Of a stretch of DNA of 64,000 bases, positions 23,843 to 60,899 are shown in pieces. Where the stretch lies: positions 62,001 through 126,000 of the forward strand of contig NZ_CP102453.1 of NCBI RefSeq assembly GCF_024661895.1. Reading direction: 5' to 3'. Origin of the DNA: Fundicoccus culcitae (GTDB taxonomy: Bacteria > Bacillota > Bacilli > Lactobacillales > Aerococcaceae). The translations under genes were made by a program, and so were the position numbers. The number at the start of each line of letters is the position of its first letter. Position 1 is the stretch's first letter. Below the pieces are notes generated by a model. The model saw nothing but the letters and a program-made list of their open reading frames with translations, ran no database searches and had not been told where the DNA came from.

Positions 23843-24349
23843 ATGGAATGTCCAAAATGTCGTCATCAACAATCTAAAGTTATTGACTCACGTCCTGCTG
23901 ATGATGGTGCTTCCATTCGTAGACGGCGCGAGTGTTTAAAGTGCGGGACACGTTTTAATACCTACGAAAGGGTAGAGAAAGCACCTCTATTAGTTATTAA
24001 AAGAGATGGGACACGTGAAGAATTTAATCGTGATAAACTATTAAGAGGCATAATTCGTGCCGCTGAGAAACGTCCTATATCACGTGAACAAATGGATCAA
24101 TTAGTTACTGATGTTGAAAATGCCGTTCGGGAAGAATCTGACACTGAAATTGCTAGCGAACGTATTGGTGAATTTATTATGCCTCGATTAATGGAAATTG
24201 ATGAGGTAGCTTATATACGCTTTGCGAGTGTTTATCGGCAATTTCAATCACGTGATATGTTCATTAAAGAATTAGAAGCAATGAACCATACACAAAAAGA
24301 TACGGATTCAGATATTGAGCTTGATAAAAATGAAGCTGAAACCGAATGA
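23843..24349 (+). CDS. nrdR: Transcriptional repressor NrdR
   Basis: 168 aa. It represses ribonucleotide reductase genes in response to ATP/dATP. The N-terminal zinc ribbon MECPKCRHQQ ... CLKCGTRF and the ATP-cone domain (VIKRDGTREEFNRDKL onward) are clear. ATG 23843 follows GGAGGAG; upstream ATG 23786 gives a non-homologous extension. It has an acidic C-terminal tail of about 20 residues beyond the usual end, and its last 20 nt overlap dnaB. TTGCTA (23791) and TATAAA (23813), 16 nt apart, may form a promoter. Confidence 0.93.
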   Translation: MECPKCRHQQSKVIDSRPADDGASIRRRRECLKCGTRFNTYERVEKAPLLVIKRDGTREEFNRDKLLRGIIRAAEKRPISREQMDQLVTDVENAVREESDTEIASERIGEFIMPRLMEIDEVAYIRFASVYRQFQSRDMFIKELEAMNHTQKDTDSDIELDKNEAETE

Positions 24350-25760
24350 TCAATTTCATGTCCTTTTTCATGCGCATTTAAGTCCTAGTGAAGAAGAAAG
24401 TCTATACAAACTATATCAACCCATTATTGGGAGTGTTGCTGTCAGCTTATTTCAAAGTTTAATGCGTATAGCCCCCAACAAAAATGAATGGTCGGCAATT
24501 ACGATGCATGCTTCCGTTTTACCCATTATTAATATTGGGATTGATCAGTTTGAAGAAAATCGTTTTAAATTAGAAGCTGTCGGTTTGTTAAAATCGTATA
24601 AAAAGATACAAAATCAATTAGATAATCATCAAATATTATTTTACGAATTGATCCAACCATTAACACCTAAAGCTTTTTTTAATCATCCATTGTTAAGCAC
24701 AAACCTTTTTCATCAATTAGGTGAAGATATTTATTATAAAATGGTTGAGACATATACCAAGGATGAATGGGATAAAAGTGCTTACCAAGAAGTTAGCAAA
24801 ACTTACGCAGATGTTTTTCGAGTCTATCAGTTGCAACCCCAACAGGATGTTGCTTCAAATAAGGAAACGGAACAGAATATTTCAATCCAAATGCCAAAAA
24901 CATTTAATTACAGTGTTTTTTTGCGGTATTTAATTGCTGAAGGCATTGAACATACGCAATTGACGTCTCAATTAAAGGAATCAGTTGCGGCTATTCATCA
25001 AATATACCATTTGAATGAAGAGGAAATGGTCGAAGTTGTAAAAGCGTGTGTCGATATTAAAGACCATTCGGTTCAGTTATCGCGTTTAAAAGTTGTGGCA
25101 GCAAAAAAAAAGGAACAACAATCGTCATCTAAAAAAACGAATCGTTCAAACGGAACGAATCAATCAAATGATAAAGCACAAAGAGAACAGCAAATACAAG
25201 CTGCTTATCCTTCACTTTCAAAAGAGGATATAGCTTTAGTTATTTTATGTGAACAAATTCCGAATTCAATCTTTTTAAATAAGCTTAAACAGTCAGTAGG
25301 TGGCTTTGCAACAGATAGTGAACATTTTTACGTGAATAGTTTGCATGAAAAATCATCTTTGAATACAGATGTTATTAATATGTTGGTTTATTATTTGTTA
25401 GTTTTTAAACAAAAGGACAGCGTATTTAAAGGTGAGTTAGAACGCACAGCCAATTCATGGCAAAAGCAAGGTTTAGACACGGCAAGTAAGGTTTTAATGG
25501 CTATTTATGCAGAGGATGATTCAACACAACAAAAGCCCGATTATAATCAAACATCAAAAGCAAAATCGACTTGGAAAAATAAGGATCATAGACGTGTTGA
25601 AACATTGCCAGATTGGCTAATTGAGCAAGAAAAAACGCAAGCTTCACCAAAACAAACATCGTTGAATGCCTTAGAAGGTGAGCCAAAAGAAGCTTCCAAT
25701 GAGCGTGAGCAAACTATTCGTAATAAGTTAAATCAACTATTAAAACAAGGGGGTGAGTAA
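24330..25760 (+). CDS. dnaB: Replication initiation and membrane attachment protein DnaB
   Basis: 476 aa from ATG 24330, inside the end of nrdR. A TTG at 24315 is in frame but has no clear ribosome-binding site. Not the helicase: this is the Firmicutes DnaB that helps load DnaC helicase at oriC with DnaD and DnaI. N-terminal DnaB/DnaD winged helix (SEEESLYKLYQPIIGSVAVSL). A C-terminal region typical of the family lies around residues 320-400. The linker around 270-300 (SSSKKTNRSNGTNQSND) is low complexity. Downstream dnaI overlaps its SD region. Confidence 0.88.
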   Translation: MKLKPNDQFHVLFHAHLSPSEEESLYKLYQPIIGSVAVSLFQSLMRIAPNKNEWSAITMHASVLPIINIGIDQFEENRFKLEAVGLLKSYKKIQNQLDNHQILFYELIQPLTPKAFFNHPLLSTNLFHQLGEDIYYKMVETYTKDEWDKSAYQEVSKTYADVFRVYQLQPQQDVASNKETEQNISIQMPKTFNYSVFLRYLIAEGIEHTQLTSQLKESVAAIHQIYHLNEEEMVEVVKACVDIKDHSVQLSRLKVVAAKKKEQQSSSKKTNRSNGTNQSNDKAQREQQIQAAYPSLSKEDIALVILCEQIPNSIFLNKLKQSVGGFATDSEHFYVNSLHEKSSLNTDVINMLVYYLLVFKQKDSVFKGELERTANSWQKQGLDTASKVLMAIYAEDDSTQQKPDYNQTSKAKSTWKNKDHRRVETLPDWLIEQEKTQASPKQTSLNALEGEPKEASNEREQTIRNKLNQLLKQGGE

Positions 25761-33218: not shown

Positions 33219-33232
33219 GGAGGTGGAAAGTT

Positions 33233-33748
33233 ATCGTTAAAGAGCTTATTATTAACGAGGACATTCGTGCAAAAGAATTACGTCTAATTGGTGATAACGG
33301 AGAACAAATTGGCGTAAAATCACTTGAAGATGCATTAACACTTGCTGAATCATTTGGGTTAGATCTAGTACTTGTTTCACCACAAGCCAAACCACCAGTT
33401 GCAAGAATTATGGACTATGGTAAATATCGTTTTGAAATGCAAAAGAAAGAAAAAGAACAACGTAAAAATCAGAAAATCGTTTCTGTTAAAGAAGTACGTT
33501 TAAGTCCTTCCATTGAAGAACATGATTATCAAACAAAATTACGTCAAGCAATCAAATTCTTAGAAAATGGCGACAAAGTTAAAGCGAGCATTCGTTTTCG
33601 CGGTCGGGCTATAACGCATAAAGAATTAGGTCGTGAAGTACTTGAAGATTTTATTGCAGATACAAAAGATTACTCAGTGGTTGAATCTCATCCAAAAATG
33701 GAAGGTCGTAGTATGTTTATCATACTAGCCCCATTGAAAAGTGAGTAA
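33233..33748 (+). CDS. infC: Translation initiation factor IF-3 with ATC start
   Basis: 171 aa from ATC 33233, 9 nt after GGAGG (33219-33223). The reading frame from here gives [19 protein letters not shown], the normal IF-3 N-terminus; the first ATG in frame (33410) would delete the N-terminal domain. The C-terminal domain ([31 protein letters not shown]) is complete. infC is known for AUU-type start codons that IF-3 itself discriminates against, giving autocontrol. IF-3 keeps 30S subunits free and checks the start codon. First gene of the operon. Confidence 0.93.
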
Positions 33749-59194: not shown

Positions 59195-59782
59195 ATGGAG
59201 TACACACAAGATTTAATTAATTGTCAACGAGAAGACTTATTAATGAAATTAAAGAATCAAATTAGCCCGAAACGCTATGAGCATGTTTTGGGTGTTGAAG
59301 AGACTAGTTTAAAATTAGCTCAACGGTATAATGTTGAGCGTGAAAAAGCTTCAATTGCTGCTTTGTTACATGATTATGCAAAAGAAATGGATCATGAACA
59401 GATGTTGAATTTAGCGTGCAAGTATTGGGATGAACCTATGTTACTAAATGCTTCTGGTGAGATTTGGCATGGATTTGCAGCCGCTCAAATAGCTAAAGAT
59501 GAATTTCACGTCACTGATAAAAGTATACTGACAGCTATTGCTGGACACACCATTGGGTGGTTTGAAATGGATGATTTATTCAAAGTTTTATATTTAGCGG
59601 ATTATACTGAAAGTGGTCGTGATTTCCCAGGTGTAGATAAAGCACGTGAATTATCAAAAAGAAATTTAGATGAAGCGGTAACTTTCAAAATGACGCAAAC
59701 CTTGAAGTACTTATTGGATGAAAGACAAGGTATTTTTATACCAACGGTTGATATATACAATCAGTGGGTCAAACAAAATTAG
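59195..59782 (+). CDS. yqeK: YqeK HD-domain Ap4A hydrolase
   Basis: 195 aa. HD metal site ALLHDYAKEM with earlier His in RYEHVLGVEE and later His/Asp in EIWHGFAAA, LADYTE. Symmetric diadenosine tetraphosphate hydrolase family. The rsfS Shine-Dalgarno lies directly after its stop codon region. Confidence 0.87.
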   Translation: MEYTQDLINCQREDLLMKLKNQISPKRYEHVLGVEETSLKLAQRYNVEREKASIAALLHDYAKEMDHEQMLNLACKYWDEPMLLNASGEIWHGFAAAQIAKDEFHVTDKSILTAIAGHTIGWFEMDDLFKVLYLADYTESGRDFPGVDKARELSKRNLDEAVTFKMTQTLKYLLDERQGIFIPTVDIYNQWVKQN

Positions 59783-59793
59783 GAGGAATTGAT

Positions 59794-60156
59794 ATTAAGA
59801 CAGTTAAAGAAAAGTTAGAATTAATTGTTAAGGCAATTGATGATCGTTTCGGACAAGATATTGTTGCGTTAGAGGTAAAAGACTTAACCCCACTTGTAGA
59901 CTATTTTGTTGTCACGCATGCTAGCAATGACCGTCAATTAGATGCGATTGTTGAAGCTGTTAAAGATGTCGTAGAGGAAAATGAAATTCCACTTAAAAAT
60001 ATTGAAGGTAAAGATGGCGGTAAATGGGTGTTAATTGATTTGAACGATATCGTCGTTCATGTATTTTATTATAGTGAGCGACTACATTATAATTTAGAAA
60101 AAGTTTGGCAAGATGCACCCTTAGTTAATTTATCAGAATGGATTAATGTAAAATGA
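59794..60156 (+). CDS. rsfS: Ribosome silencing factor RsfS with ATT start
   Basis: 120 aa from ATT 59794, 7 nt after AGGAGG (59781-59786). This start gives KTVKEKLELIVKAIDDRFG, which aligns with the usual RsfS N-terminus, and the length matches B. subtilis (118 aa). The only canonical start in frame that keeps the domain is GTG 59764, which lies in yqeK, has no SD and puts the AGGAGG inside the coding region. Core: DIVALEVKDLTPLVDYFVV and GGKWVLIDLNDIVVHVF. It binds L14 and blocks subunit joining. Confidence 0.88.
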   Translation: MKTVKEKLELIVKAIDDRFGQDIVALEVKDLTPLVDYFVVTHASNDRQLDAIVEAVKDVVEENEIPLKNIEGKDGGKWVLIDLNDIVVHVFYYSERLHYNLEKVWQDAPLVNLSEWINVK

Positions 60157-60899
60157 GTTTTTCGAAAATAGCACCTATTTATGATCGTTTTAATGATTTG
60201 ACTGTTTATGAAAATTGGTTAGATTTTACTTTAGACTATCTCGATGGACCGGGGATGAAGGTTTTAGATGTTGGCTGTGGGACGGGTTATTTTACACAAA
60301 TGCTTGCTCCTTTTAGTGAGACGATAACGGGTGTTGACTTAGACGCGCAAATGTTAAAACAGGCTCAAGCGGCTTATTCAATTCCGAATTTAGAATTTAA
60401 ACAGGCAAATATGTTGGATCTCAGTAGTTTATCAAATGATTATCAATTAGTGACATGCTTTGCTGATACCTTGTGTTTTTTAAAAAATATTGAGGAAGTT
60501 GAACTAGCCTTGAAACAAATCTACCAACGAATGACTTCTGATAGTATTCTTTTGTTTGATGTGTGGACACCCTATCAGATAAAGGAAGGCTTTCATGATT
60601 TTAACTATTTTGATTTAGATGATCTGGCTGTTTTAACTTGGCAAAGCCGCAGTTATCCAGATCAATTGATGGCTGAACATTATTTAACCGCTTTAAGTAA
60701 AATTGAAGAGAGCGGATTATACGAACGTGTGGATACTCAATTAGTTGAAAGAACCTATCCTATGGAGAAATATCAAAAAGCCCTTCGAAAAGCGGGATTT
60801 AATGACATCGAAGTTACGGTTGATTTTGGAAATGACTTGTTTAACGCAAAGGTACATCAAACAGTGGATAGATGGTTTTTCGCTGCGTATAAACAGTAA
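60153..60899 (+). CDS. yqeM: SAM-dependent methyltransferase (YqeM)
   Basis: 248 aa. Class I methyltransferase: motif I VLDVGCGTGYFTQ (residues ~37-49), GVDLDAQML, LLFDVWTPYQI. Overlaps rsfS by 4 nt (ATGA). Target unknown. Confidence 0.85.
   Translation: MSFSKIAPIYDRFNDLTVYENWLDFTLDYLDGPGMKVLDVGCGTGYFTQMLAPFSETITGVDLDAQMLKQAQAAYSIPNLEFKQANMLDLSSLSNDYQLVTCFADTLCFLKNIEEVELALKQIYQRMTSDSILLFDVWTPYQIKEGFHDFNYFDLDDLAVLTWQSRSYPDQLMAEHYLTALSKIEESGLYERVDTQLVERTYPMEKYQKALRKAGFNDIEVTVDFGNDLFNAKVHQTVDRWFFAAYKQ

Follow-up and report, generated by a model that had tools for sequence, protein, structure and literature searches.

A putative AUU start codon for rsfS in Fundicoccus culcitae and AUA/AUU/AUC counterparts in related families

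The rsfS locus and its start codon

The window analyzed here is a stretch of 64,000 nucleotides from the genome of Fundicoccus culcitae, which is assembled as one contig of 3.22 Mb and was the sole member of its genus in our family search. Four of its genes lie in the same direction on the forward strand: a nadD-like gene, presumably nadD; yqeK (59195-59782; TIGR00488); rsfS, encoding the ribosomal silencing factor RsfS (59794-60156); and a SAM-dependent methyltransferase-like gene (60153-60899), which has weak methyltransferase matches below the cut-offs and which we take to be yqeM. The two immediate neighbors of rsfS served as control genes. The rsfS frame comprises 120 codons and ends at TGA 60154-60156; its product exceeded the curated cut-offs of PF02410 (100 bits against 21.6) and of the NCBIfam equivalog TIGR00090 (104.7 bits against 56.9), has relatives in the PDB, and aligned with Staphylococcus aureus RsfS over residues 5-115.

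A Shine-Dalgarno (SD) sequence, AGGAGG at 59781-59786, overlaps the yqeK stop codon (TAG, 59780-59782) and lies exactly 7 nt before the inferred ATT (AUU) start codon of rsfS at 59794-59796, which is followed by AAG ACA GTT AAA; no other candidate has a normal distance to the SD. Up to the in-frame stop 15 codons upstream of this ATT, the sole in-frame canonical codon (ATG, GTG or TTG) is the GTG at 59764-59766, within yqeK, and no SD of at least 4 nt was found before it. The next one downstream is GTG 60028, at residue 79, and a downstream canonical start in the window was rejected for this reason. The preliminary description of this DNA had given the same SD spacing, the same RsfS frame of 120 residues without a canonical codon between the SD and the conserved core, and the same SD-less GTG as the only upstream option; this reading of the sequence is right.

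We rejected GTG 59764 as the rsfS start because it lacks an SD and looks like an out-of-frame by-product of the YN-x-W motif of yqeK. This YN-x-W end of yqeK (59755-59770 in the window, and its equivalent in relatives) places TTG, GTG, ATG or CTG in the rsfS frame and is thus a trap for start prediction; in several relatives TTG, ATG or CTG stands at the position of GTG 59764, often cut off by an in-frame stop.

The further claim that a start at ATT yields the usual RsfS N-terminus gained support from alignment. Facklamia languida has an ATG at the exact alignment column of the window ATT with the same SD before it, Met1 of S. aureus RsfS (117 aa) aligns with window residue 2, and related families carry AUA, AUU or AUC at or adjoining the window-ATT column, often closely preceded by an in-frame stop. 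We conclude that rsfS in the window very probably starts at ATT 59794.

Start codons of rsfS in related families

The relatives read comprised 76 Aerococcaceae genomes, 29 Vagococcaceae genomes, and 23 of 28 Enterococcaceae genomes together with 43 named Enterococcus records, which gave 72, 29 and 61 distinct loci, respectively, after collapsing of sequences identical over 130 nt around the start. Outside the order, 69 of 130 genomes were sampled. Identity with named records assigned group f1 to Aerococcaceae (Fundicoccus, Facklamia, Abiotrophia), f3 to Enterococcaceae (locus L147 equals L080 of Enterococcus plantarum) and f8 to Vagococcaceae (L050 of Vagococcus lutrae equals L173), these names being our own matching, as are Listeriaceae (f7) and Lactobacillaceae (f9). 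Loci whose match started beyond residue 15 were excluded from the counts; these were one in Aerococcaceae (L225) and 18 of 73 in other Bacilli, all 18 of which hold a canonical codon.

An SD-preceded ATG, GTG or TTG was missing at rsfS in 58 of 61 distinct Enterococcaceae loci and 25 of 29 Vagococcaceae loci. Among these 83 loci, 49 from Enterococcaceae and 21 from Vagococcaceae had no ATG, GTG or TTG after the last in-frame stop as far as residue 6, and the other 13 held one without a recognized SD, including an ATG inside the SD itself (L178, L180, L237) or directly after the G run (L246). Of the remaining seven loci, six carry ATG where the window has its ATT; in the seventh (L041), an ATG with an SD in front stands five codons upstream of that locus's ATT AAG. 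In the column next to that of the window ATT, the 83 loci carry ATA (64), ATT (12) or ATC (7), the ATT count including L069, in which an insertion shifts the ungapped column although ATC ATA follows its SD. The codon preceding this start column is ATC in 46 loci, ACC in 17, ATT in 12, AAA in 3 and five others once each. In some loci two AUN codons (AUA, AUU or AUC) stand side by side, as in the ATT ATT of Vagococcus, and either may be the start. The SD ends 7-9 nt 5′ of the start column in 77 of the 83 loci, and no SD was recognized in three.

The predominance of ATA in the start column is not a general feature of these genes. In the bodies of the same rsfS loci ATA makes up only 42 of 821 isoleucine codons, and at eight isoleucine-rich columns it accounts for 0 to 6 of 52-81 isoleucine codons (binomial P = 2e-65 for the start column, a value that ignores relatedness and is an indication only). 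Because ATA is rare among body isoleucine codons, the third base of the start column appears to be kept for something other than coding isoleucine, and the bias is one that a start codon barred from becoming ATG would be expected to show. In 52 of the 83 loci the nearest upstream in-frame stop is no more than five codons away from the window-ATT column, and in L072, L234, L247 and L248 it is two codons away. This excludes a longer protein in many species, and on the same count we rejected frameshift fusion with yqeK as a general account. An SD of at least 6 nt was present in 78 of 90 AUN loci (the 83 loci, L041 and seven Aerococcaceae loci, minus L246) compared with 79 of 113 canonical loci (Fisher p = 0.0065, relatedness ignored), a weak difference that we do not count as proof.

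Within Aerococcaceae, seven of 72 loci, from five genera and including the window, lack a usable canonical start. The candidate codons are ATT in the window, ATC or ATT in L008, ATT or ATA in L010, L012 and L164, and ATC in L152; in the seventh, L037 (equal to L168, Facklamia lactis), an in-frame TGA directly follows the rsfS SD and is succeeded by ATA ACC CTG, so that the start may be ATA or CTG. ATG, TTG or GTG is found in the other 65 loci, 12 of which have an ATG without a recognized SD. The nearest relative, Fundicoccus ignavus, has rsfS with ATG, as do most Aerococcaceae, and ATT in this genus therefore rests on one assembly. The preliminary description had proposed that conservation of the codon in relatives would support the start: the AUA/AUU/AUC class is indeed conserved, mainly in two other families, but ATT itself is not kept in the nearest relative.

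A quick tree of 191 RsfS rows likewise placed Fundicoccus ignavus as the neighbor of the window (support 87, not starred). It required 14 changes between non-canonical and canonical states, with gain and loss not distinguishable, and this figure is rough because the tree used few columns (114) and left many inner forks unresolved (73 of 176). For this count, L041 and L255 were left out, L246 was counted as canonical, and fifteen loci with a canonical codon and no recognized SD were set to canonical by hand.

Other lineages used canonical starts almost throughout. In other Bacilli a canonical rsfS start with an SD was found in 52 of 55 distinct loci, the other three having no recognized SD nearby. 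All 18 Listeriaceae loci (for example L122 and L124) have TTG with an SD; the Lactobacillales groups f2, f4, f5 and f6 (5, 3, 1 and 5 loci) and all 16 loci of more distant bacteria are canonical with an SD; and rsfS of E. coli K-12 (L408) starts with TTG. Of 30 Lactobacillaceae loci, read from 30 of 61 genomes, 29 have ATG, TTG or GTG, with TTG in many. The remaining one, from the Lactobacillaceae-like genome G121 (L378, equal to L255), apparently uses CTG, preceded by an in-frame TGA and with AAAGGAG as SD. Thus, weak starts are frequent for rsfS, and the AUA/AUU/AUC class was seen only in Enterococcaceae, Vagococcaceae and Aerococcaceae. Judging from the alignments, a non-canonical rsfS start seems to be the norm among the Enterococcaceae and Vagococcaceae sampled and to recur in Aerococcaceae, which takes the finding well beyond the single locus of the preliminary description.

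Control genes and infC

To gauge how often such a gap arises by chance, a lenient test was applied to the window's 59 open frames that span 110 codons or more, with an SD-preceded ATG, GTG or TTG sought in the first 35% of each. Such a codon was present in 54 of the 59, and three of the five exceptions (yqeK, the methyltransferase gene and the frame at 24285-25757) have an early ATG, leaving only infC and rsfS without a plausible canonical start. The frame at 24285-25757 spans 491 codons and, without a canonical start behind an SD in its first 35%, has TTG at codons 10 and 12 and ATG at codon 15.

For Enterococcaceae and Vagococcaceae, the neighboring genes in the same loci were read as well. 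A canonical yqeK start behind an SD was present in 73 of 74 readable loci, and in the remaining one the canonical start had no SD (in the other 16 the gene runs off its locus). yqeM has a canonical codon in all 90 loci, only 24 of which pass the strict SD test, and the fair comparison is therefore the absence of any canonical codon. By this measure, no canonical codon whatsoever was found for rsfS in 70 of 90 loci, compared with none of 74 for yqeK and none of 90 for yqeM.

infC, which encodes IF3 (33233-33748, forward strand; TIGR00168), has an inferred start at ATC 33233 after GGAGG at 33219-33223, and the first 35% of its open frame is free of canonical codons. Among 49 distinct infC rows, obtained from 51 of 59 genomes with a match, ATA, ATC or ATT occupies the start column in 48, and in L336 it stands one codon earlier. 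Twelve rows (L304, L310-L312, L318-L321, L331, L332, L334, L335), including all four from Enterococcaceae, have an ATG two codons 5′ of the conserved AUN column, right after the SD, and further rows have a GTG within the SD; the infC start is ambiguous in those relatives because of these codons at or near the SD.

Possible control of rsfS by IF3

IF3 rejects codons such as AUU, AUA and AUC at initiation. Genes with starts discriminated in this manner (infC, pcnB, sigR, ccpN) are marked by the lack of a usable ATG, GTG or TTG, and rsfS of the window lacks one as well. The SD test by which canonical starts were judged is not absolute, given the 12 SD-less ATG loci in Aerococcaceae and the low pass rate of yqeM. 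A further mark is an SD at a normal distance from the non-canonical codon, which rsfS shows. As to conservation, the AUN codon is kept in Enterococcaceae and Vagococcaceae, and in the window's own family it is limited to the seven loci described above, with ATG in the nearest relative. On the sequence evidence as a whole, AUU, AUA or AUC is very probably the rsfS start.

On the 50S subunit RsfS serves as an anti-association factor; in S. aureus it is reported to bind uL14 and block 50S-30S association (PMC7125091). AUA and AUU starts have been mapped in S. aureus for infC, ccpN, cvfC1 and citZ, and three of these gave about 10% of the AUG level as reporters in poor medium, with ccpN reaching up to 30% in rich medium (PMC13009471). 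In Streptomyces, sigR with its GTC start is reported to be repressed by IF3 (PMC5472188).

We propose that rsfS is translated from AUU 59794, reached through the strong SD AGGAGG at 7 nt. The initiator tRNA matches AUU, AUA and AUC at just two bases, the first and the second, and IF3 destabilizes such complexes, so that RsfS synthesis would be held low and would rise when there is little IF3 per 30S subunit. RsfS on uL14 of the 50S blocks subunit joining and IF3 parts the subunits from the 30S side, and the start codon would then couple the amount of RsfS to the activity of its fellow anti-association factor IF3. That rsfS starts at AUU, AUA or AUC and is throttled by IF3 seems to us the better-founded reading, held with some confidence. 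The low yield, the control by IF3 and the reciprocal coupling are our extrapolation from the S. aureus reporters and the anti-association role of RsfS; dependence on IF3, which the preliminary description had also put forward, would follow from known biology. The non-AUG class in most enterococci and vagococci examined suggests that RsfS output is kept low at translation initiation. More tentatively, Enterococcaceae, Vagococcaceae and several Aerococcaceae may have selectively kept the AUA/AUU/AUC start as a means of IF3 control, RsfS being made when IF3 is short in a translational cross-circuit; we regard this wider scheme as possible, with the balance somewhat against it. In E. coli lacking rimM, IF3 and RsfS are both reported to be up (PMC13246957), and because the two rise together this result does not favor reciprocity, yet E. 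coli rsfS starts with TTG.

The main rival is that the AUU/AUA start is real but acts as a fixed brake, giving constant low RsfS because IF3 never varies enough to regulate; it shares its start codon with IF3 control, so sequence cannot separate the two. The frequency of weak rsfS starts elsewhere, with TTG in every Listeriaceae locus, E. coli K-12 and many Lactobacillaceae, speaks for it, as do the low S. aureus AUA/AUU reporters just cited and the reported failure of the cvfC1 AUU start to respond to medium (PMC13009471). However, TTG or GTG would also brake without IF3 discrimination, yet two families keep AUA, AUU or AUC, and we consider constant low synthesis an unlikely, if serious, alternative to control by IF3.

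A canonical start might instead have been missed, whether GTG 59764, an ATG inside or near the SD, or, for some enterococci, the inner ATG at residue 7. The GTG shares the rsfS frame, the 13 loci with an SD-less canonical codon upstream offer such starts, and 22 of the 83 have ATG, GTG or TTG at residue 7, where one is possible. Against this, 61 of the 83 have none at residue 7, 70 of 90 have none up to residue 6, the next in the window is residue 79, and GTG 59764 follows from the yqeK motif; we judge a missed start improbable. That ATT 59794 is a sequencing error or a recent, meaningless mutation of ATG might be suggested by the ATG of its nearest relative and by the reliance on one assembly, the genus having no other genome in the set. 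This is very improbable in view of six more Aerococcaceae loci from four more genera and the 83 loci in two families, all independent of this assembly.

If control by IF3 is correct, a start of the IF3-sensitive type is apparently the norm in two families, in a ribosome-shutdown gene and beside the non-canonical start of infC, and it would offer a simple rule for how the supply of RsfS is set. Gene finders restricted to ATG, GTG and TTG should then put the start of rsfS in the wrong place in these families.

Experimental studies cover few bacterial genes whose starts are IF3-sensitive (PMC5472188), and in the open-access literature linking RsfS or iojap with start codons, no report of an AUN rsfS start appeared among the matches listed. 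From the alignments, the non-canonical start of rsfS would be unusually widely conserved. The rsfS genes of E. coli K-12 and Listeriaceae resemble those described here in having a weak non-AUG start in the same gene, but their UUG is one of the three canonical starts tolerated by IF3 (PMC5472188). Streptomyces sigR is likewise a stress-related gene with a rare start that is conserved in its lineage and answers to IF3; unlike rsfS, it encodes a sigma factor, uses GTC and was tested by experiment (PMC5472188). Closer in lineage, ccpN (AUA) and cvfC1 (AUU) of Staphylococcus, also Bacilli, combine conserved starts of the same class with a strong SD; they are other genes, and their starts were shown by initiation profiling and reporters in a study whose main text contains no occurrence of rsfS (PMC13009471). 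The nearest parallel in the window itself is infC, which like rsfS has an AUN start behind a strong SD and a product that keeps ribosomal subunits apart. The AUN codon of infC is found at one column in 48 of 49 rows, whereas that of rsfS is found only in certain families, and the infC product is itself the repressor, autoregulated by IF3, whereas rsfS would be its target.
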